IMG/VR virus record: IMGVR_UViG_3300027782_000435
Location: 1 to 20,984 of that record
Reading direction: 5' to 3' (one strand)
Length of the DNA stretch: 20,984 nt
DNA from: a virus
The position numbers were made by a program, and so were the translations under genes. Shown here piece by piece: positions 370 through 20,984 of this stretch (positions are counted from its first letter, which is position 1; every line of letters starts with the position of its first letter). The notes below the pieces were generated by a model. The model worked only from the letters and a program-made list of their open reading frames with translations. It made no database searches and had not been told where the DNA came from.

Positions 370-530
370 TCTGAGTCTTCTTTCTTTAACGCGCCGATGA
401 AGTGAAGAACGAGAGCTGCAATAGTGAGCCAGATCACGATCTTTTGAAGCCCACCAGATAGCGTCAAGATTGTTGTGACAGATGCAGCGATAGTCCAAAT
501 CAACGCATGGAACTCACCCCAAAACTTCAT
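366..530 (-). CDS. 54-aa membrane protein, second holin-like gene
   Basis: This small frame reads MKFWGEFHALIWTIAASVTT... and ends KKEDSE. The ATG at 530-528 shares one base with the stop of the preceding surface-protein gene (TGATG) and has AAGGA about 8 nt upstream. Its stop overlaps the next gene's ATG (ATGA). The two hydrophobic stretches, about residues 9-27 and 31-47, are separated by a Gly-Gly-Leu turn and followed by a charged KKEDSE tail. Both ends are translationally coupled to neighbours, which strongly supports a real gene despite its size. Two consecutive tiny membrane proteins are typical of actinophage lysis cassettes (holin pair or holin/antiholin). Which of the two is the holin cannot be told. 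Confidence 0.75.
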   Translation of the reverse strand: MKFWGEFHALIWTIAASVTTILTLSGGLQKIVIWLTIAALVLHFIGALKKEDSE

Positions 531-1903
531 CACTTATTCCTTCGACTAGGTGCAGGGGCTACGGTCAAGAATACAGCAGATAGCGCAATCAACGCACGAC
601 GAGTTTTCACAGGCACCGTTGAGTTGAGTGGAACATAAGTGTCAGCGAAACCTTGGAAAATATTCAGCACAGACTCGAACGCTTTACGCACAGAACTAGG
701 CGCATCTTGAACCGCAGCCACCACAGCCTCAGCCTCAGCAGGACTCAACTCCGTTGGCGCAATCTCCTCAAACAAAGCAACCGCCTGCTCACTCGTAACC
801 GAGGCTAGAATGGTTGGGTTGGAGACGAGTGACGCTGCTTGGCTGGTGTCCAAATCCTTTGCCAACACCTGCTCAACTAATGCTTGCACCTCAGCCTTGT
901 CAGCCGTTTCTAACGCGTCCAATACGGCTACTAGCTCTTGGTCGCTGAGTGGTGGTTCAGTCTCATCTGGGAGGCTCAGGACGCTTGTGGTGGGGTTCTC
1001 AGGTTGGGTTGTGGGGGTAGGCTGTACCGATGTCGTTGTGGTCACATTCTCTGTCGTTGTGGTCATTTCTGCAACTGTCGTGGTTGTGGTTGACTGAGAC
1101 TCCGGTATGGGTTCTGTTGTCGTTGTTGACGGTTCGGTTGTTGTTGTTGGCGGTATATAAAGCGTCACGGGAACAGTCGAGGTCGTGGTCGTTGAAGTCG
1201 TCGTTGAGGAGCTGGTAGTTGATGAAGTTGTTTCTGGGACTGTTGATGTTGTTTGTGGTTCTACCGTTGTACTTGGCGGGACGCTAGATGTGGTGGACTC
1301 TGGCATCGTGGTCGATGGGAATGTTGTTGATACTTGTGGTGTTGCTGTCGTAGGTGGCTCACTCGTAAATGCTTCAGGTGGCACAATCGTCCAACCTGTG
1401 TCATCAATGTTCCAAGCCAACATGAAGCACGTCCCACCACCGTTCTCATAGAACCAGGCATCAAGAGGATATGAGCCAGCTGGTGTTGCACTCAAATCAA
1501 ACTCAGTCGCGCTGCACCCTTGGTCTTGCCAAACCCCAAACTCGTCTAATCCAATCTTGACTGTTCCACCATCATCGGATGCAACCCACATCTGCAAGGT
1601 CTGATGCTCAGGGATTTGCAGGTAGCCCGTGTAATGAACCAAAAACAAATCCCAACCACAATCACCAAACAAGTTCTGCTGATAATCAAAGGTGACGTTG
1701 ATGAACGGCACCACGTCACGACCACACTCGACATAAGCGGTATCTGATTTGATAGGTGGGATTTCGGTGACGGTATAACCAACCGCGTTCAACCCAACCT
1801 GGAAGGCCTCAGCCGAAGGAACGAAACTAAATAGTGAAACTAAAAGTGCAGGGGAAACAACTAGCCAACGGCTACGGAGTAATGACTTCAGATGCAATGT
1901 CAT
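530..1903 (-). CDS. Exported PA14-like / Thr-rich stalk / TM surface protein
   Basis: The product is 457 aa. Residues 1-33 look like a signal peptide: basic KSLLRSR, a hydrophobic core, then a signal-peptidase-like site after SAEA. Residues about 35-175 resemble a PA14/GLEYA-type beta-sandwich: YTGYLQIPEHQTLQMWVASD, the Asp-Asp-Gly-Gly turn, and paired cysteines at C60, C82, C130 and C159. Residues about 181-307 are a Thr/Ser/Pro mucin-like stalk with runs of TTTT. Residues about 318-420 are helical (AEAEAVVAAVQDAP), and residues about 435-450 form a hydrophobic segment followed by SRRNK. PA14 domains commonly bind carbohydrate, and this build resembles Acidimicrobiia surface proteins. I infer a protein displayed on the infected cell or a moron gene; a virion adhesin is the alternative. 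The signal peptide argues against an ordinary tail fibre. Confidence 0.75.
   Translation of the reverse strand: MTLHLKSLLRSRWLVVSPALLVSLFSFVPSAEAFQVGLNAVGYTVTEIPPIKSDTAYVECGRDVVPFINVTFDYQQNLFGDCGWDLFLVHYTGYLQIPEHQTLQMWVASDDGGTVKIGLDEFGVWQDQGCSATEFDLSATPAGSYPLDAWFYENGGGTCFMLAWNIDDTGWTIVPPEAFTSEPPTTATPQVSTTFPSTTMPESTTSSVPPSTTVEPQTTSTVPETTSSTTSSSTTTSTTTTSTVPVTLYIPPTTTTEPSTTTTEPIPESQSTTTTTVAEMTTTTENVTTTTSVQPTPTTQPENPTTSVLSLPDETEPPLSDQELVAVLDALETADKAEVQALVEQVLAKDLDTSQAASLVSNPTILASVTSEQAVALFEEIAPTELSPAEAEAVVAAVQDAPSSVRKAFESVLNIFQGFADTYVPLNSTVPVKTRRALIALSAVFLTVAPAPSRRNK
983..1363 (-). repeat. Low-complexity Thr/Ser/Pro-rich coding repeat
   Basis: This segment encodes residues about 181-307 of the surface protein. 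Degenerate ACN (Thr) codons alternate with Ser, Pro, Val and Glu codons in imperfect TTTT, STTTTS and PTTTTEP units. On the plus strand it appears as tracts of GTT/GTC/GTG. It is a degenerate codon-level repeat, not an exact tandem array. Long plus-strand open frames here are by-products of the composition. Confidence 0.85.
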
Positions 1904-4325: not shown

Positions 4326-6332
4326 CTACCTGACACTTACTGGGATTTTGCCAACCGTCTTGTTATATGTTTGCAAAGCCTTAACCACCAAATCAGGTAC
4401 ACCAGCATCAGCTATCGCAGCGTTGATATTGATCGCATACGTATCCCCAGAACGAGTCTGGAGCGCAAGCGAGCCAACCGTGTTAGCAGGCTGACCCGAC
4501 ACCCCAGCCATCGGGTTAGGCATACTACCCAACACCTTCGGATACTTAGCCATCAAATCAATCGTCGTTTTGATTGACTCATTCAACTTATCTTGAGCCT
4601 CACGCTCCTTATCAATCGCATCAGCCAACGCCTCAGCTGCAGCAAACTGGCGATCCTTCGCATCATTAACTGCTTGCAAAGCCTCATCATAAACAAGAGA
4701 ACCAATCGTCGCACCAAAAATAGTGTCATTCAAAATACCCTGCTGAGTATTCAACTCCTTAGTCAAATCAATCTGAGAATCAGTCGCATCAGACACACTC
4801 AACTTCGCCTCAGCCAACGCCAACTCTGCTCGACGAACATCCATAGGAGAAGACTCAGGGTCTTGACGAACCTTACGCAAATTCATCTCAGCATCAGCAA
4901 CCGAATAAATCGCCTCCTCAACCGCAAACGTCGCCCGCTCCTGACCACGCTGAGCCTTAGCCAACTCCGTCTGCGCAGCCAACGCCTCCGGCGAACCAGC
5001 ACCAAACCCCTGCGACACCTGATCCAACCTTGCCTGCGCTTTAGCCACAGCCATATCCGCATCAGCCTTCGACTTCGTAGCACTAGCCGTACCCTTCTGA
5101 GCATCAGCAAACGACTTCTGTGCCGAAGTTGTGGACTTCAAAGCGTCACCATATTCCTTCAACTTTTCGGTTGCAGTCTTTAGGGTCTTCGTAACTGACT
5201 TGCCACTACCACCCAATTCACCACCTAAATCTTGTGCTGAACCCTTGAAGTTTGTTTGCTGATTGATCGCATCACGGATGCTGAGTTTGTATTGATTTCC
5301 AGCAGTAGTCAAAGAATCAAAAGAACCTTTGAGCGCGTCAATATTTATCCTGTCTTTACCTACCTGAGCAAATGCCTTTGCAGCTTCACCTATCTTGAAA
5401 GGGTTCAACGCAAGTATTGCCCCTTTAGCTGCATAATAAACATCTGAAGAAATATTGATTAAATGCGCAAAAGCAACAGCAACAGTCTTAACAAAATTCA
5501 CAATCCCTTTACCAGCACCACCCGATTCAAAAACAAGTTGCTGTAATCCAGCCACCAAACCTTTCTCACCGATGACTGTGGTGACGCGTTGAATGGCTGG
5601 CGCAACATTCTTGACCAAGAAGTCTGTGAACTTTTGCAGATAAGGCAGAAGGGCTGCACCTATTGTTTCCATGATTTCACCAAACTGACCAGACAGAATC
5701 TTTAACTGTCCACCAAAAGTCTCTGCCTTAGTAGCTGCAGCACCACCGAACTGATCGTTCAATAAACCAATTACTTTGCCAAAGTCTTTAGACTTCTTTG
5801 TATTTTCATCAAGCGGTATACCAAGTTTTGATAGAGCGGTGAACTGTCCCTGGCTGGACTTAGCCAACGCCAAGGAAACTGTCGCCAAATCTTTACCAGT
5901 AGCAGCCGAAATATCTTGAGCCGTATTCAACAAACCAAGTGACTGCTGATAATCTCCTGTTGCTCGAACTAATAAGCCCAGCGATGTACGAAGCTCAATA
6001 TCCGACGTGCCGGTTCGAAGTTGTGTCACCGATACATACCGTTCAGCTGAAGCATTCAACGCCTCATTAGCACCAAAGGTCTTCTCCAACTGACGTTGCA
6101 ACTCAGCCTGCGAAGCCTGATCCTCCATCGCAGCCTTGACCGCTTTAGTCATTCCAACAGCAACAGCCCCAATTGCAGCAGTTGCTCCGATAGCCATTGC
6201 GGAGAAGAGTGGAGAAACTTTCCCCACTTCTTTGCCGAAACCTTTGATGTCACCAGATAAAAGTTTTAAGCCTGCTTTGGCTGCAGCAGTATCGGAAATA
6301 AATTTTACAGAGAACGTCCGCTCACCAGCCAT
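4326..6332 (-). CDS. Tape measure protein
   Basis: The product is 668 aa and belongs to the phage tail tape-measure class. The N-terminus has the typical FSVKFISDTAAAKAGLKLLS opening, then a hydrophobic Ala/Gly segment at about 40-68. A helical core follows with AEVERYV-like stretches, 'TGTSDIELRTSLGLLVRATG', and ATVSLALAKSSQGQFTALSK, the classic 'lA.as.G....L.klGi' motif. The block at about 205-250 (FGGQLKILSGQFGEIMETIG) is also characteristic. Residues about 385-590 form a long Ala/Lys/Asp/Glu coiled coil. The length predicts a tail of roughly 100 nm by the usual 1.5 angstrom per residue rule. Codon choice changes inside the gene: the coiled-coil part (about 4440-5150) uses almost only G- or T-ending codons, while the N-terminal part is mixed. 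Confidence 0.9.
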   Translation of the reverse strand: MAGERTFSVKFISDTAAAKAGLKLLSGDIKGFGKEVGKVSPLFSAMAIGATAAIGAVAVGMTKAVKAAMEDQASQAELQRQLEKTFGANEALNASAERYVSVTQLRTGTSDIELRTSLGLLVRATGDYQQSLGLLNTAQDISAATGKDLATVSLALAKSSQGQFTALSKLGIPLDENTKKSKDFGKVIGLLNDQFGGAAATKAETFGGQLKILSGQFGEIMETIGAALLPYLQKFTDFLVKNVAPAIQRVTTVIGEKGLVAGLQQLVFESGGAGKGIVNFVKTVAVAFAHLINISSDVYYAAKGAILALNPFKIGEAAKAFAQVGKDRINIDALKGSFDSLTTAGNQYKLSIRDAINQQTNFKGSAQDLGGELGGSGKSVTKTLKTATEKLKEYGDALKSTTSAQKSFADAQKGTASATKSKADADMAVAKAQARLDQVSQGFGAGSPEALAAQTELAKAQRGQERATFAVEEAIYSVADAEMNLRKVRQDPESSPMDVRRAELALAEAKLSVSDATDSQIDLTKELNTQQGILNDTIFGATIGSLVYDEALQAVNDAKDRQFAAAEALADAIDKEREAQDKLNESIKTTIDLMAKYPKVLGSMPNPMAGVSGQPANTVGSLALQTRSGDTYAININAAIADAGVPDLVVKALQTYNKTVGKIPVSVR

Positions 6333-6341
6333 GCGCCGATT

Positions 6342-7052
6342 CTACTCAATAACCGACATCCCATTCCGTAAAGCAACAAACTCATCCAACATCGCACTAT
6401 AAAGGTCTTTGCCTGTGAGGCCATCCCAACGAGAAATATCTACAGGCGCATTCCACCAAGCCTCATCCAACACCTCTGCACCAGCACGACGTTGACGTGG
6501 TTGACGGGCTTGACGTGTGCGTGGTGTTACAGGATTAGAAGCAACCTCAACATCGAGTGTGAACGATGAATCCAACAACTGACCGTGACCTTCATGAAAC
6601 TCAAACGGCTGATCCGGCGCGTGTTGAGGAAGATAGAAAATTCGTGCAGGGTCTTTAGTCTGAGGGTCACCAACCAAACCAATACGGTCATGCAGCTCAG
6701 ACCACACCACCCGCCACAACGACGCAGGCACCCGCTCCGCTAACGGCAAGACCAAGTGATAGTGAGGATCATCCAAACGATGCGAATACGTGGAATAGGC
6801 GAACCATTCCAAACCGTCTAGTCGAGCATTGTCAAAGGTTTCGCTGTCCATGTCCACAACCAATGCCTCAACAAAACGAACATTACGGTTACCTCTGGTA
6901 GTACCAGCGTCATACTCAACAGGTGACCACAACGACCCAGCCTGCTTAACAGGGTTCTCCTCATGGAACGACAACAACTCCTTCAAGTCATCCCAAGACG
7001 AAGCCAAAGGCTTCGGATATATCGACTTCACATTCTTAAATAGAACTGCCAT
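6342..7052 (-). CDS. Stand-alone archaeo-eukaryotic-primase-like (prim-pol) protein in the tail module
   Basis: The product is 236 aa. Residues 62-69 (EALVVDMD) fit the hhhDhD metal-binding motif (D67, D69). Residues 86-104 (YSTYSHRLDDPHYHLVLPL) fit the 'yTThSH....p.yRlvlPL' region. Residues 129-142 (DPQTKDPARIFYLP) fit the 'D...dpsRi.YlP' segment of plasmid/phage primase-polymerases related to RepB, D5 and BT4734 N-terminal domains. Residues about 174-192 are a basic Arg/Gln/Pro linker, and the tail ends with a short helix. No helicase domain is attached. It has the best ribosome-binding site here (AGGAGGAGGGG at about 7056-7066) and sits between a gp10-like gene and the tape measure, where no replication gene is expected. 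The fold call is from motifs only. Confidence 0.7.
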   Translation of the reverse strand: MAVLFKNVKSIYPKPLASSWDDLKELLSFHEENPVKQAGSLWSPVEYDAGTTRGNRNVRFVEALVVDMDSETFDNARLDGLEWFAYSTYSHRLDDPHYHLVLPLAERVPASLWRVVWSELHDRIGLVGDPQTKDPARIFYLPQHAPDQPFEFHEGHGQLLDSSFTLDVEVASNPVTPRTRQARQPRQRRAGAEVLDEAWWNAPVDISRWDGLTGKDLYSAMLDEFVALRNGMSVIE

Positions 7053-7055
7053 AAC

Positions 7056-7066
7056 CCCTCCTCCTA
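7056..7066 (-). promoter_or_regulatory. Very strong Shine-Dalgarno of the primase-like gene
   Basis: On the minus strand TAGGAGGAGGGG precedes the ATG at 7052 by about 4-6 nt. It is a near-perfect anti-16S match, much better than that of the adjacent tail genes, several of which have none and rely on coupling. It fixes the start and suggests high expression of this gene. Confidence 0.8.
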
Positions 7067-7092
7067 GAAGGGTACAGGAACCTCAGCCAAAG

Positions 7093-7692
7093 TCAAGCAC
7101 TATCTTTCAGCGTGTTGATTACCTTCTGGATAGCGTCCAAATACTCTTTGGCAATATTGTCTTTTTGCTTACGGACAGTAGGCCAAAAGAAATAACCAGC
7201 TCTGCCACGATGCCGAAGGAACTGACTCGTATGCCCGCCACCTTTACGGTAACCATCACGGGATTCACCCTTTTTATTGACCGATCTAGCCCCAGCAGAA
7301 GTCTTCATCCCCTTACCAAACTTGCCACCACCAAACTCAGCACCAAAGAAAACATCACCCCTGGTCACCTTGCGTTTGCGATTCCTATTCGGGTTGGTTG
7401 TAGAAACAAAAGCAGACGTACTAGCCAAATAAATCATAGGCACTCGATCCTTGCCAACCTTCATTCCCTTCATCACCTCAGTAGCCTGACGGTTACGGGT
7501 TATAGAACCTGCTTCAGTCTTGGCTTTATTTAGAAGGTTCTCTGCCACTTTTCCTGCAGCAATACGAGCTTCAGCATTAAAGCGTTTGTCAGCCTTAGAT
7601 GCGTCGCGCAAAAATTCGTAGATACCTTTTACTTGAATCGCATTGTTGTCAGAGGTAATACTGACTTGACCTGCTCTACCAAAAACTGCCAT
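7093..7692 (-). CDS. HK97 gp10-like tail/neck completion protein
   Basis: The product is 199 aa. An N-terminal helix region (VKGIYEFLRDASKADKRFNA) precedes AAGKVAENLLNKAKTEAGSI. A strongly basic middle (NRNRKRKVTRGDVFFGAEFG) carries the 'fGaEfG' signature. The C-terminal block HTSQFLRHRGRAGYFFWPTV then IAKEYLDAIQKVI matches the 'tp.f.p.rgrGyff.Pa.r....i...y..ai..v' ending of HK97-gp10-like proteins, which sit at the neck or tail-completion ring. In most phages this gene lies between connector and tail terminator; here it lies after the tail assembly chaperone. No clear Shine-Dalgarno is present, and the start is 9 nt after the stop of the frameshifted chaperone. Confidence 0.75.
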   Translation of the reverse strand: MAVFGRAGQVSITSDNNAIQVKGIYEFLRDASKADKRFNAEARIAAGKVAENLLNKAKTEAGSITRNRQATEVMKGMKVGKDRVPMIYLASTSAFVSTTNPNRNRKRKVTRGDVFFGAEFGGGKFGKGMKTSAGARSVNKKGESRDGYRKGGGHTSQFLRHRGRAGYFFWPTVRKQKDNIAKEYLDAIQKVINTLKDSA

Positions 7693-7701
7693 AGCAACAG
7701 A

Positions 7702-8111
7702 CTACTTGCCTAGATGAATTGCTCTCCAACGCAAATAAGCAAACATCGTGAATAACATTCGAGGGTCTTCTGCCAGCAAAGAGGAGGGGGAAATATGTGT
7801 CTCGCAAGCGAGATACGCAATCATCCAATGTGCTGACTGATCTCCAAAGGGACGATCACGGCATCAGCCTGGTTACCCAACTCCAAAGCCTCAATCTCAT
7901 TAATCCAAGAATCAAAATCTAAACCAGTACGTTTCGTGCGATGCTCAGAATGCCAAGCCAAAAAACCTAAATCAGTCAGCGTCAGTTCAGCCTCAAACTT
8001 CGCAACACTCTTGCTGAACTTTTGTTCAAAGGCGATGAAGTCTGGGAACGCAGCAATGATGGTGCGCTTTGATTGATCCAATGATGACGTTACTTCTAAC
8101 GCTATTTTCAT
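7702..8111 (-). CDS. Tail assembly chaperone, long -1 frameshift form (gpGT-like)
   Basis: The first 87 codons are those of the short form. At C CCT TTG (7851-7845) a -1 slip onto CCC TTT moves ribosomes into a frame encoding PFGDQSAHWMIAYLACETHI and then a 'SPSSLLAEDPRML' motif, ending LGK at the TAG at 7704-7702. The total is about 136 aa. The extension has the usual signature of the second tail chaperone segment ('W..i..l...t.i.Ps.ll.edpr.l..m..yl'), and it begins upstream of any start codon in that frame. Frameshifted G/GT chaperones between tail tube and tape measure are conserved in siphoviruses and help load the tape measure. The heptamer and the extension are seen directly; the slip efficiency is not known. 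Confidence 0.8.
7821..8111 (-). CDS. Tail assembly chaperone, short form (gpG-like)
   Basis: The product is 96 aa, starting at the ATG at 8111 with GGAGG 4 nt upstream. It opens with MKIALEVTSSLDQSKRTIIA, followed by AFPDFIAFEQKFSKSVAKFE, a LGFLAWHSEHRTKRTGLDFD segment with the 'la..a.....g....df..f' pattern of phage tail chaperone N-domains, and an acidic helix WINEIEALELG. The position directly after the tail tube gene is the classic one. The in-frame stop at 7823-7821 lies just past the slippery site, so this is the majority product and the frameshifted version the minority. Confidence 0.85.
   Translation of the reverse strand: MKIALEVTSSLDQSKRTIIAAFPDFIAFEQKFSKSVAKFEAELTLTDLGFLAWHSEHRTKRTGLDFDSWINEIEALELGNQADAVIVPLEISQHIG
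7845..7851 (-). promoter_or_regulatory. -1 ribosomal frameshift slippery heptamer C CCT TTG
   Basis: In the chaperone frame the codons are GTC CCT TTG, so the heptamer is C_CCU_UUG, the X_XXY_YYZ form. Slipping back one base pairs both tRNAs on CCC UUU and enters the open frame that continues to 7702. No strong stimulatory hairpin is obvious immediately downstream by eye. Confidence 0.75.
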
Positions 8112-8146: not shown

Positions 8147-8572
8147 TTACGCGCCAGTACCAGTCTTGGTGATTGCACCGTCAACAGGGAGCGTTATATC
8201 AAAGGTAGCGAGGTCGCCCACAGCGCCGTTCACGGGACTATAACCGGTGCTAATTACGTTAAACGCATATTGTGGTTGCGTCGAACCAGCAGTAGCAGTT
8301 CCGTTTGGCTTGATTGTCATAGGAACAGCAGTTCCGTTTGAGAACACATCGTAAAACAATTTTTCAATTGTTGGATAATCCTGGTGCATTGACAAGGTGA
8401 CGCTGTGGTCACGCAAGCCTTGGATGCGGGTAACAGCGTTTGTGGTGGAGAATGCCGTGGTCGTGACTTCCGCAGCAGACAAATTTAAGGACACAGATGC
8501 AACGTATGCCGAAATATCCGTGTTAGCCGTTCCGAATGTCACGTTTACGTTTGTGAGAACTTGCTTTGCCAT
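8147..8572 (-). CDS. Major tail tube protein
   Basis: The product is 141 aa. The opening MAKQVLTNVNVTFGTANTDI, then SAYVASVSLNLSAAEVTTTA and FSTTNAVTRIQGLRDHSVTL, follow the 'v..v.g.d.s.yv..v.l..s...v.tT.fg......i.GL.d.s.tl' pattern of lambda-gpV/actinophage tail tube subunits. A helix (PTIEKLFYDVF) and the strands 'PMTIKP...' and 'YAFNVISTGYSP' complete the single tube domain, and 'GDLATFDITLPVDG' is the usual penultimate strand. The length fits a minimal tube protein with no added Ig domain. AGGAG lies about 8 nt ahead of the ATG at 8572. It polymerises around the tape measure. Confidence 0.88.
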   Translation of the reverse strand: MAKQVLTNVNVTFGTANTDISAYVASVSLNLSAAEVTTTAFSTTNAVTRIQGLRDHSVTLSMHQDYPTIEKLFYDVFSNGTAVPMTIKPNGTATAGSTQPQYAFNVISTGYSPVNGAVGDLATFDITLPVDGAITKTGTGA

Positions 8573-9689: not shown

Positions 9690-9698
9690 ATTCTAGTT
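9690..9698 (-). repeat. 9-bp direct repeat at the 3' boundary of the homing endonuclease gene
   Basis: The plus-strand sequence attctagtt occurs here and again at 10419-10427, at the two ends of the endonuclease gene. In both places it encodes the last Asn codon and the TAG stop on the minus strand, and both proteins end in Ala-Ser-Ile-Asn. It may mark the insertion boundary. Confidence 0.45.
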
Positions 9699-10412
9699 TA
9701 TTGACGCAGATTGCGTCGTAGCCAAATGACGAGCAACCCAATACCTGCGTCGTGCCTCACTCATCTTGGCACGGGTTTCAGCAGAACGTTTTGAACCTCG
9801 TCTTGACTCACTCAAATTGGCGCGGTGTTCAGGTGAGAGTTTTTTGCCTAGGTGCGCCTTACTCAATTTGGCACAATGTTCAGGAGAAAGTTTTTTGCCT
9901 TTATTTGCAGCGCTTATTTTTGAGCAAGTTTCAACAGAACGTTTTGAACCTCGTCGTGACTCGCTCATTTTGGCAATAGCTTCAGGTGAGTGTTTTCTGC
10001 CTCGTTGTGCCAGACTCATTTTTAAACAAGTTTCTGGTGAACGTTTCTTCCCTCGTTTTGCCTCACCAATTTTGGCACAAACCTCTGCTGAATGTCGTAA
10101 ACCCAAAGCGCCATCACCACCTGCGGTGATGTTAGTGAGTTTATGCCCATTATCACGGTACTGAGAAATATAAAGTATTTCCACTTGACGAGCTTCGTCC
10201 CACGAAATACTTGTTTTCAAAATAACCGCCATAACAGAATTTCCATCGTGCAAAATTTTTCTTAGTAGATTGCACTTATAGCTGTTTTTACCATTTTTTG
10301 CTTGATGAAGATGTTCTGATAAGCGTTTATTTGGTGTCTCATATTTGGAAATCCCAATATAACGATAGTGGTCTGGTTGCGCTGATGATACTAAAGCGTA
10401 GACACAAGGCAT
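9693..10412 (-). CDS. GIY-YIG homing endonuclease with NUMOD3 repeats
   Basis: The product is 239 aa. Residues about 1-100 form a GIY-YIG nuclease: the first motif is VYAL (GIY position), then YIGIS at 18-22, R30 in NKRLSEH, E78 within ARQVEILYI, and N94 in LTNITAGGDG. The expected catalytic residues are present. Residues 104-222 are seven tandem 17-residue units built as G-[KS]-K-x-S-x-E-x-x-x-K-[MI]-S-x-A-x-R, a NUMOD3-like DNA-binding array. The ATG has no Shine-Dalgarno, and the nuclease part is visibly AT-richer than its neighbours. It is free-standing, lies between a sugar-transfer gene and the connector, and has no role in the virion. It is a selfish element likely to cut a related phage's homologous locus. 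Confidence 0.85.
   Translation of the reverse strand: MPCVYALVSSAQPDHYRYIGISKYETPNKRLSEHLHQAKNGKNSYKCNLLRKILHDGNSVMAVILKTSISWDEARQVEILYISQYRDNGHKLTNITAGGDGALGLRHSAEVCAKIGEAKRGKKRSPETCLKMSLAQRGRKHSPEAIAKMSESRRGSKRSVETCSKISAANKGKKLSPEHCAKLSKAHLGKKLSPEHRANLSESRRGSKRSAETRAKMSEARRRYWVARHLATTQSASIN
9747..10103 (-). repeat. Seven tandem 51-bp units coding the NUMOD3-like array
   Basis: Residues 104-222 of the endonuclease divide into exactly seven 17-residue units, each beginning with Gly after a basic/polar residue. The unit starts are G104, G121, G138, G155, G172, G189 and G206. Units 3 and 6 share SESRRGSKRS with their followers, suggesting duplication of a two- or three-unit block. DNA identity between units is partial, which is why plus-strand shadow frames also look repetitive. 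Confidence 0.85.
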
Positions 10413-19346: not shown

Positions 19347-19752
19347 TTTGAATCTTCACCTCCACGAAGCCAAGCCGTGCTCGATCAACAGGAGTAAAAC
19401 CAAGCAGGGATAAACAATCTAACACCTGAGCATCCAAAGCTCGCAACGCTGAACGATCACGCCAATCACTTTCACGCAACACCTTCACACGCAACGCAGC
19501 ACGCTCATCAATCTGCTCAGCCACAATCTGCAACAACTCAGTATCCATCTGCGGGCTGATCCAAGTAAACCCAACATTCCAAACACGATCCCAAAACTGG
19601 CGACCAGCCTGACCCAACGGCCTATGCGGTTCAGGCACCAAAGATGAAGTTGGGATAGCAATAACGGTGTCAGGCAAAGGACGCTTGCCAGGGTTACCAG
19701 CACGACGCTTCTGCTCCACCGGCTTAGGGGGACGACCAACAGGTTTAGGCAT
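19279..19752 (-). CDS. terS: Terminase small subunit (P27-like)
   Basis: The product is 157 aa from the ATG at 19752. The opening PKPVGRPPKPVEQKRRAGNP then GKRPLP is the basic 'GRP.kp...kr..GnpGkRplp' N-terminus of P27-family small terminases. A helical middle follows: PLGQAGRQFWDRVWNVGFTW, MDTELLQIVAEQIDERAALR and LRALDAQVLDCLSLLGFTPV, with the 'llGftP..R.rlg' motif. It overlaps the upstream methyltransferase gene by 8 nt and the large terminase by 68 nt. It recognises the packaging site and guides the large subunit. A longer version from 19800 is possible in frame but lacks the family's usual beginning. Confidence 0.88.
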   Translation of the reverse strand: MPKPVGRPPKPVEQKRRAGNPGKRPLPDTVIAIPTSSLVPEPHRPLGQAGRQFWDRVWNVGFTWISPQMDTELLQIVAEQIDERAALRVKVLRESDWRDRSALRALDAQVLDCLSLLGFTPVDRARLGFVEVKIQNELEQFRERKSQRTNVFDTKGL

Positions 19753-20947
19753 TGAGGAAGTCGTGAACCTTCCCAGACGATTCCAACACCGGCAACACAC
19801 CAGTCAGCTTTTGGAATCGAGCACAAATCACATCCACATATTTTGGGTCTAACTCCATCAGATATGCGGTGCGGTTCGTTTCCTGTGCAGCGATCAGTGT
19901 GCTGCCTGATCCACCGAATAGATCAAGCACAATGTCCTGCTCATCACCCCAACGATCAAAGAACCATTTTGCTAATGCAACTGGTTTCTGTGTTGGGTGA
20001 ACCCTTGTCTCGTCACCCCTTGCTGTGTAGTTGGTTGTTACAAGAACTCTGGCAATTTCCCGTTTATGCTTTGTCTTAGACCAGCAGGTTTCAAATGTGC
20101 TTCCAAACCTTCCATCTAGTAGACCAATGCGTTCATCACTGTACTTATCCCAAATGATCCAACTTCCAAGATCAGGGTATTGCCTGTGCAATGTCTCAAC
20201 ATAATAATCTGCGCCCCACAAGAATATTTCTTTGCAGTAATCAAACTGTTCAAGAATTAGAGAAGCATCAAATTGCTTATCGTCATTAGCAACTTTTCTA
20301 TGTGCCTTGCCTGTGTTGCCCATCTTTGAAAAGTCTGTATCCAGATCCATTCCGTAAGGTGGATCAGTGAACACCATGTTGATTGTCTTGTTGTTTAACA
20401 ACTTGCCGATCATCTCCAGATTGCTGCTATCCCCACACATGACTCGATGGTCGCCCAACAACCACACATCACCCAACGTTGAAACAGCAGGCACATCCTC
20501 TGGTACCTCATCAACATCAATAGGCAACTCAATCTGCTCTACACGATCCAACAATTCTTGCACCGCCTTATCATCCCAGCCCGATGACTCCAGCAGACCT
20601 GGGTTCAACGAACCAACATCGTTGATGAGATCAGCCAACGCCTCCTCGTCATAGTCACCCAACTCAGCTGTGCGATTATCAGCCAAAGCAAATGCCTTAG
20701 AAGTCACCTCGTCATCATCAACCCATACGACAGCAATCTCAGCCCAACCCAAAGCCTGAGCAGCTTGCAAAGTGTGGTTGCCTGCGATGACCACGTTGTC
20801 TGTCCGGCGCACGACAATCGGTTTGCGTTGCCCGAACGCTTCAAGGCTGCGCTTCACGGCCTCGATGTCACCACGTCTTGGGTTGCCTGGTAGCAACTTG
20901 AGTTCGGTGATTGAGTGGGCGAGCTGGAGCAGGTCTTTTTGGATCAT
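19745..20947 (-). CDS. ParB-like nuclease domain fused to DNA methyltransferase
   Basis: The product is 400 aa from the ATG at 20947 (AGGG 8 nt ahead; a GTG at 20956 is the alternative). Residues about 12-100 are a ParB/Srx-like domain: LKLLPGNPRRGDIEAVKRSL, QRKPIVVRR, IAGNHTLQAAQALGW, then VVWVDDDEVTSKAFALADNR. Residues about 155-385 are a beta-type adenine or N4-cytosine methyltransferase: TLGDVWLLGDHRVMCGDS, catalytic motif TDPPYG at 194-199, HPTQKP at 317-322, and the SAM-binding DLFGGSGST at 342-350. Such fusions sit next to terminases in many phages and may protect phage DNA from host restriction. The stretch at about 20040-20400 has more A-ending codons than the flanking parts, hinting at recombination. 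Confidence 0.92.
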   Translation of the reverse strand: MIQKDLLQLAHSITELKLLPGNPRRGDIEAVKRSLEAFGQRKPIVVRRTDNVVIAGNHTLQAAQALGWAEIAVVWVDDDEVTSKAFALADNRTAELGDYDEEALADLINDVGSLNPGLLESSGWDDKAVQELLDRVEQIELPIDVDEVPEDVPAVSTLGDVWLLGDHRVMCGDSSNLEMIGKLLNNKTINMVFTDPPYGMDLDTDFSKMGNTGKAHRKVANDDKQFDASLILEQFDYCKEIFLWGADYYVETLHRQYPDLGSWIIWDKYSDERIGLLDGRFGSTFETCWSKTKHKREIARVLVTTNYTARGDETRVHPTQKPVALAKWFFDRWGDEQDIVLDLFGGSGSTLIAAQETNRTAYLMELDPKYVDVICARFQKLTGVLPVLESSGKVHDFLNA

Positions 20948-20984
20948 GACAAACACCCTAGTTTCGCGGAGGCGCGTCTTGCGC
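20944..20984 (-). CDS. 3' end of an upstream gene (fragment)
   Basis: One frame entering from the window edge reads ARRASAKLGCLS and ends with a TGA overlapping the methyltransferase ATG (ATGA), matching the coupling style of the rest of the operon. Only about 13 codons are visible, and two other frames are also open at the edge, so the call is tentative and no function can be given. Confidence 0.3.
   Translation of the reverse strand, partial: ARRASAKLGCLS

Follow-up and report, generated by a model that had tools for sequence, protein, structure and literature searches.

A stand-alone AEP (primase-polymerase-type) protein predicted between the tail genes of freshwater phages

The tail locus and its conservation

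The window spans an entire IMG/VR record (20,984 bases), which probably represents part of a genome. On its minus strand, an open reading frame at 6342-7052 starts with ATG and encodes a 236-aa product amid genes of the tail module. The features that define the locus are listed below.

8147..8572, minus strand: major tail protein (phrog_4574, E=6e-16)
7821..8111, minus strand: 96-aa gene occupying the position of the tail assembly chaperone gpG
7093..7692, minus strand: upstream tail-module gene, 199 aa, which precedes the AEP gene in related contigs
7069..7096, minus strand: sigma70-like promoter TTGACT-N16-TACCCT, with the -35 element at 7091-7096 and the -10 element at 7069-7074
7055..7065, minus strand: Shine-Dalgarno sequence AGGAGGAGGGG that serves the AEP gene and ranks second in strength within the window
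6342..7052, minus strand: stand-alone AEP (primase-polymerase-type) protein, 236 aa, predicted to comprise an AEP core (residues 1-166), a disordered basic linker (168-190) and a helical C-terminus (191-236)
4326..6332, minus strand: tape measure protein, with weak tail tape-measure profile matches, downstream of the AEP gene and separated from its stop codon by 9 nt

The order of major tail protein, 96-aa gene, 199-aa gene, AEP gene and tape measure recurs in all close loci and in the full-length distant ones, wherever the contig covers the region. The neck gene-AEP-tape measure arrangement is shared by 293 relatives (177 unique), and the gap between the AEP gene and the tape measure is shorter than 20 nt in 138 of 139 loci. 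Circularity was avoided by retrieving loci with the head-tail adaptor gene alone, leaving the AEP sequence unused; 113 of the 114 loci obtained in this way with enough sequence carry the AEP gene. An earlier note had placed the gene between a gp10-like neck gene and the tape measure. The position holds in essentially every related contig, whereas the gp10-like identity gains support from neither profile nor fold, as the model of the 199-aa protein reaches a pLDDT of 72 and has no meaningful fold match.

Several other parts of the window deserve mention in their own right. The frame that follows the 96-aa gene at 7702-7820(-) reads ISPSSLLAEDPRMLFTMFAYLRWRAIHLGK and resembles a tail assembly chaperone's frameshift extension. 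An endonuclease-like ORF is inserted ahead of the head-tail adaptor at 9693-10412(-), with repeated SPET/SAET-A-K-[IM]-S blocks and a GC3 of 0.31. By appearance it is a GIY-YIG protein with NUMOD repeats, has a relative in one of 81 loci, and is probably a homing endonuclease. At 19745-20956(-), a ParB-like domain fused to a DNA methyltransferase adjoins the terminase genes. Past the tail genes, 530-1903(-) encodes a Thr/Ser/Pro-rich protein with an N-terminal hydrophobic stretch and no family match.

Domain assignment and the HxH signature

Profiles, predicted fold and invariant residues jointly support the reading of the 236-aa protein as an AEP. The motifs named in the earlier note are all present, namely VVDMD (D67, D69), TYSH...HYHLVLPL and GDPQTKDPARIFYLP (D129, D134). 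Among PHROG profiles, phrog_9765 ("DNA primase") matches residues 40-166 with E=3.9e-17 and phrog_256 ("DNA helicase") matches residues 52-169 with E=5.4e-10; both matches lie far above chance and are confined to the AEP parts of the two profiles. No helicase domain was matched in the protein, whose best profile match covers residues 40-166 only. Searches of Pfam, NCBIfam and PADLOC gave no usable match for the tail AEP, and a PDB sequence search with the single protein and with a 62-row profile matched nothing. Weak Rep-type Pfam matches occur in some members, and the Pfam model of Prim-Pol (PF09250) matched none of 62 members.

A protein scan returned 299 relatives in viral contigs, of which the best 80 were examined, and a motif-pattern search added more distant ones, mostly self-contained proteins 230-260 aa long with identities as low as about 41%. 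The final comparison set holds 293 AEP ORFs, 177 of them unique. For the positions counted, R53, D67, D69, T88, S90, H97, H99, W113, W117, D129, K133, D134, R137, P142 and W200 are invariant across the 177 unique sequences; the two aspartates that the earlier note had singled out, D67 and D69, are thus kept together at this locus in every one. The median dN/dS of the gene is about 0.12, near that of its structural neighbours and against 0.35 for the tape measure; by this measure the gene is under purifying selection. Neither close nor profile-based relatives were found in bacterial and archaeal genomes, so that route allows no prophage or host assignment.

Alignment of the tail AEP profile with ten VirE-type AEPs (hhalign) gives a probability of 99.7 and E=1e-25. 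Residues D67, D69, D129 and R137 are common to all members of both sets, and H91, present in 175 of the 177 tail AEPs, aligns with the VirE-type histidine. The tail proteins share with the VirE/VapE-type primase-helicases (phrog_9765, phrog_256) the DxD, T-x-x-H, D-x-x-T and R-x-x-Y-x-P blocks in the same order, but lack an SF3-type helicase and are encoded in the tail module instead of the replication module. They also differ at positions 97 and 99, where H-x-H in 177/177 tail AEPs stands against K/R-x-R in 10/10 VirE-type proteins compared, so that H-x-H marks the tail family. The replacement may signal altered chemistry, or H99 may be the canonical AEP motif II histidine, restored. The residues H97-Y/W-H99 also constitute an HUH motif. 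Identity as an HUH nuclease was considered and rejected, as the catalytic tyrosine is absent after the motif: no tyrosine beyond H99 is fully invariant, and Y140, which is F in 2 of 177 sequences, belongs to a shared AEP motif. On profile and model evidence, the ORF at 6342-7052(-) is a real, stand-alone AEP domain homologous to the N-terminal domain of VirE-type primase-helicases.

Predicted fold

An AlphaFold2 model built with 62 window and locus sequences has a mean pLDDT of 83, with values of about 90-95 over most of residues 1-166. The comparison with solved structures recovers the AEP core fold. In Foldseek, the AEP domain of cyanophage S-2L PrimPol (6zp9) ranks first among PDB entries (E=1.1e-4) and is the only match below 1e-3, followed by weaker matches to LigD PolDom, CAPP and AsfvPrimPol. 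VIA-align likewise places 6zp9 first, with Z 9.3 over 133 aligned residues (rmsd 3.3), above CAPP (6.3), primase subunits (PriS, 5.6-5.9) and PolDom (5.0-5.3); one non-AEP chain, 2atz, ranks second at Z 7.2. Among viral models, the top match is a 234-aa protein of an uncultured phage (61% identity), and most of those that follow are phage primase-helicases. S-2L PrimPol is thus the best solved-structure match, yet it has no detectable sequence relation to the tail AEP, and its role is not transferable. LigD PolDom and CAPP likewise use the AEP catalytic fold in a small unit that acts as a polymerase, but the tail protein has no ligase, nuclease or CRISPR partner and no sequence similarity to them.

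A second AEP, the host and the gain of the gene

Long contigs of the clade reveal the replication region, and one of them (G001, 31.6 kb) is a nearly full genome turn. Its replication region encodes a 673-aa protein with the Pfam domains Prim-Pol (PF09250, E=1.4e-40) and AAA_25. Prim-Pol was detected in 13 of the 28 records searched, and all 13 also carry the tail AEP; several Prim-Pol-negative contigs stop before the replication region on their maps. The description of the AEP as "lone" in the earlier note therefore applies to the protein, which has no helicase domain, and not to the genome, where by domain content the tail AEP is a second AEP. Both belong to the AEP superfamily. The replicative protein represents another AEP family, is 600-700 aa long, is fused to an AAA ATPase where scanned, and is encoded in the replication module. 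Recent duplication of the phages' own Prim-Pol was considered as a source of the tail AEP and rejected, because hhalign detects no sequence relation between them (probability 0.3).

The same nearly complete genome encodes a WhiB protein. WhiB serves as a marker of actinobacterial phages (PMC10202952, PMC6802176), which makes an actinobacterium the probable host of the clade. Pontimonas phage phiPsal1, the closest isolate found (43% identity in the major capsid protein, 42% in TerL), encodes RepO instead of Prim-Pol. Both phiPsal1 and its IMG/VR relatives are without the AEP gene, and in them the tape measure follows its upstream neighbour after 1-2 nt. Within the clade, the single exception among the 114 loci (L329, a partial contig) carries a natural deletion, around 7040-7160 of its own sequence, in which 86 unrelated bases take the place of the AEP gene and the upstream gene runs straight to the tape measure. 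Taken together, the AEP-less relatives and this deletion are most simply explained by a gain of the gene in the freshwater clade, followed by occasional loss.

Expression signals

The AEP gene is preceded by signals of its own. The promoter-like site lies within the 40-nt gap, 17 nt upstream of the start codon, and its -35 element runs into the stop codon of the 199-aa gene. Among SigA-like sites it scores best in the window, as it does in G001, G003, G005, G008, G011 and G015, and 115 of 163 loci keep it. Among 34 non-redundant loci, 26 have a site with p<0.05 against shuffled sequence and eight have no recognisable site; the scoring matrix was written after the AEP site had been seen, so these p-values serve as a guide only. 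Other promoter-like sites recur 45 nt upstream of the major tail protein (8572(-)) and, at roughly 129 nt, upstream of the capsid gene (14300(-)). The earlier note had described the Shine-Dalgarno sequence as the strongest in the window; at -12.3 kcal/mol it comes second to that of TerL (-13.6 kcal/mol).

Two subclades show further elements at this position. In the second (L087-type loci), a perfect dyad, TCAGGAT-TCGCT-ATCCTGA, spans the promoter region just upstream of the AEP gene. Its core was found only there in the contigs examined, and it may represent an operator. In the third (L102, L115, L122, L127, L131, L151), 330-415 nt separate the 199-aa gene from the AEP gene, and a ribbon-helix-helix-like gene overlaps the AEP start where the sequence was read. 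In one such contig (G014, locus L122), a promoter and a 60-aa gene with 52% identity to c33 occupy the gap, followed by the ribbon-helix-helix-like gene that ends over the AEP start. This cassette stands in for the sigma70-like site and resembles one in the early region of G001, and the c33-like gene is otherwise an early-region gene.

The dedicated promoter-like element leaves the earlier claim of late-gene control unsupported, and that claim is probably wrong. Together with the dyad and the cassette of the two subclades, it argues that the AEP gene has regulation of its own, either apart from that of the late operon or on top of it. Since only 9 nt separate the gene from the tape measure, with no room for a terminator, read-through from upstream is also expected, and late transcripts should cover the AEP gene too. 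The arrangement recalls the morons of prophages and phages, which are likewise extra genes in structural regions with a promoter of their own (here by sequence) and absent in relatives. Unlike morons, however, the tail AEP gene lacks its own terminator, has a GC content that does not deviate (0.496 versus 0.484), and occurs in nearly all clade members instead of sporadically.

Possible roles of the tail AEP

The earlier note had suggested late-stage priming, co-injection with the DNA, or reuse of the fold in a structural or anti-defence role. We favour, at a probability of about 0.5, an independently expressed and probably active accessory primase-polymerase working on phage DNA within the cell. 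On this view, the N-terminal domain of a VirE-type phage primase-helicase gave rise to a stand-alone, catalytically competent AEP, whose gene presumably became inserted into the tail module, between the upstream (neck) gene and that of the tape measure, in the common ancestor of a large siphovirus clade from fresh water with probably actinobacterial hosts. It would have been kept there as cargo with its own promoter and a strong ribosome-binding site. The protein would be made shortly after the phage enters, without depending on the late operon. Acting in trans on phage DNA in the cell, it would supply primers or fill gaps at points where the host machinery or the replicative Prim-Pol/AAA protein stalls. 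The promoter-like site speaks for intracellular synthesis. An intracellular role gives no explanation for the strict siting beside the tape measure.

That siting, with translation close to the tape measure, is what favours a virion-borne primase-polymerase, carried in the tail lumen or head and injected with the DNA, which would prime or repair the entering genome before phage gene expression. The second, replicative AEP makes such a separate early role plausible. Precedents exist in phage P23-45, whose virion RNA polymerase is fused to the tape measure (PMC10770324), and in plasmid (conjugative) primases, which are transferred along with DNA (PMC5512222). P23-45 likewise ties a nucleic-acid polymerase gene to the tape measure, but the tail AEP is a separate protein, an AEP and not an RNA polymerase, and would only hypothetically be a virion component. 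The absence of fusion counts against carriage in the virion, as do the natural deletion and the finding of one study that PrimPol domains of injected polyvalent proteins were present only in conjugative elements (PMC5512222); a promoter of its own and the early-type cassette of one subclade would also be superfluous for a virion protein. On balance, we regard carriage in the virion as a rather unlikely possibility. The fuller proposal, that a stand-alone AEP with an HxH-altered active site would assemble together with the tape measure, travel into the cell alongside the genome and work on the arriving DNA, leaving later replication to the second AEP, is unlikely.

The HxH signature could alternatively mark a re-purposed protein, in which the histidines serve a new chemistry (another nucleotide or signal molecule, HUH-like cutting, or inhibition of host defence) and not primer synthesis. 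The invariance of H97 and H99 against the K/R-x-R of the VirE-type proteins, the weak Rep-type matches and the moron-like promoter would fit. Yet the polymerase-site DxD, D129 and R137 are all retained, the sole nearly invariant tyrosine after HxH is Y140 of the shared AEP motif, PADLOC gave no match, and H99 may merely restore a canonical histidine, all of which makes re-purposing quite improbable. Displacement of the main replicative primase into the tail module, after its separation from the helicase, would agree with the intact core and active-site acids, and stand-alone AEPs with a separate helicase gene are known in other phages (henriette). It is nevertheless very unlikely in view of the 13 clade records with their own Prim-Pol, AAA-fused where scanned, and of the locus that dispenses with the AEP gene, albeit in a partial contig. 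A catalytically dead tail structural or chaperone protein reusing the AEP fold would suit the position between tail genes and the conserved C-terminal tryptophan W200. Such reuse is highly improbable, since D67, D69, D129, K133, D134 and R137 are completely invariant, a natural deletion exists, and AEP-less relatives build the same module.

Significance

As far as the literature was covered, no paper was found that describes an AEP encoded among tail genes. An apparently intact AEP is kept between two tail genes in hundreds of contigs of freshwater phages, which encode another for replication. This raises a testable question, namely of what use a second, free-standing AEP is to these phages. 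Ready controls exist in the HxH signature, the promoter dedicated to the gene, the naturally deleted locus and the relatives that lack the AEP. If the protein is injected, it would be the phage counterpart of the plasmid primases that are sent along with DNA.
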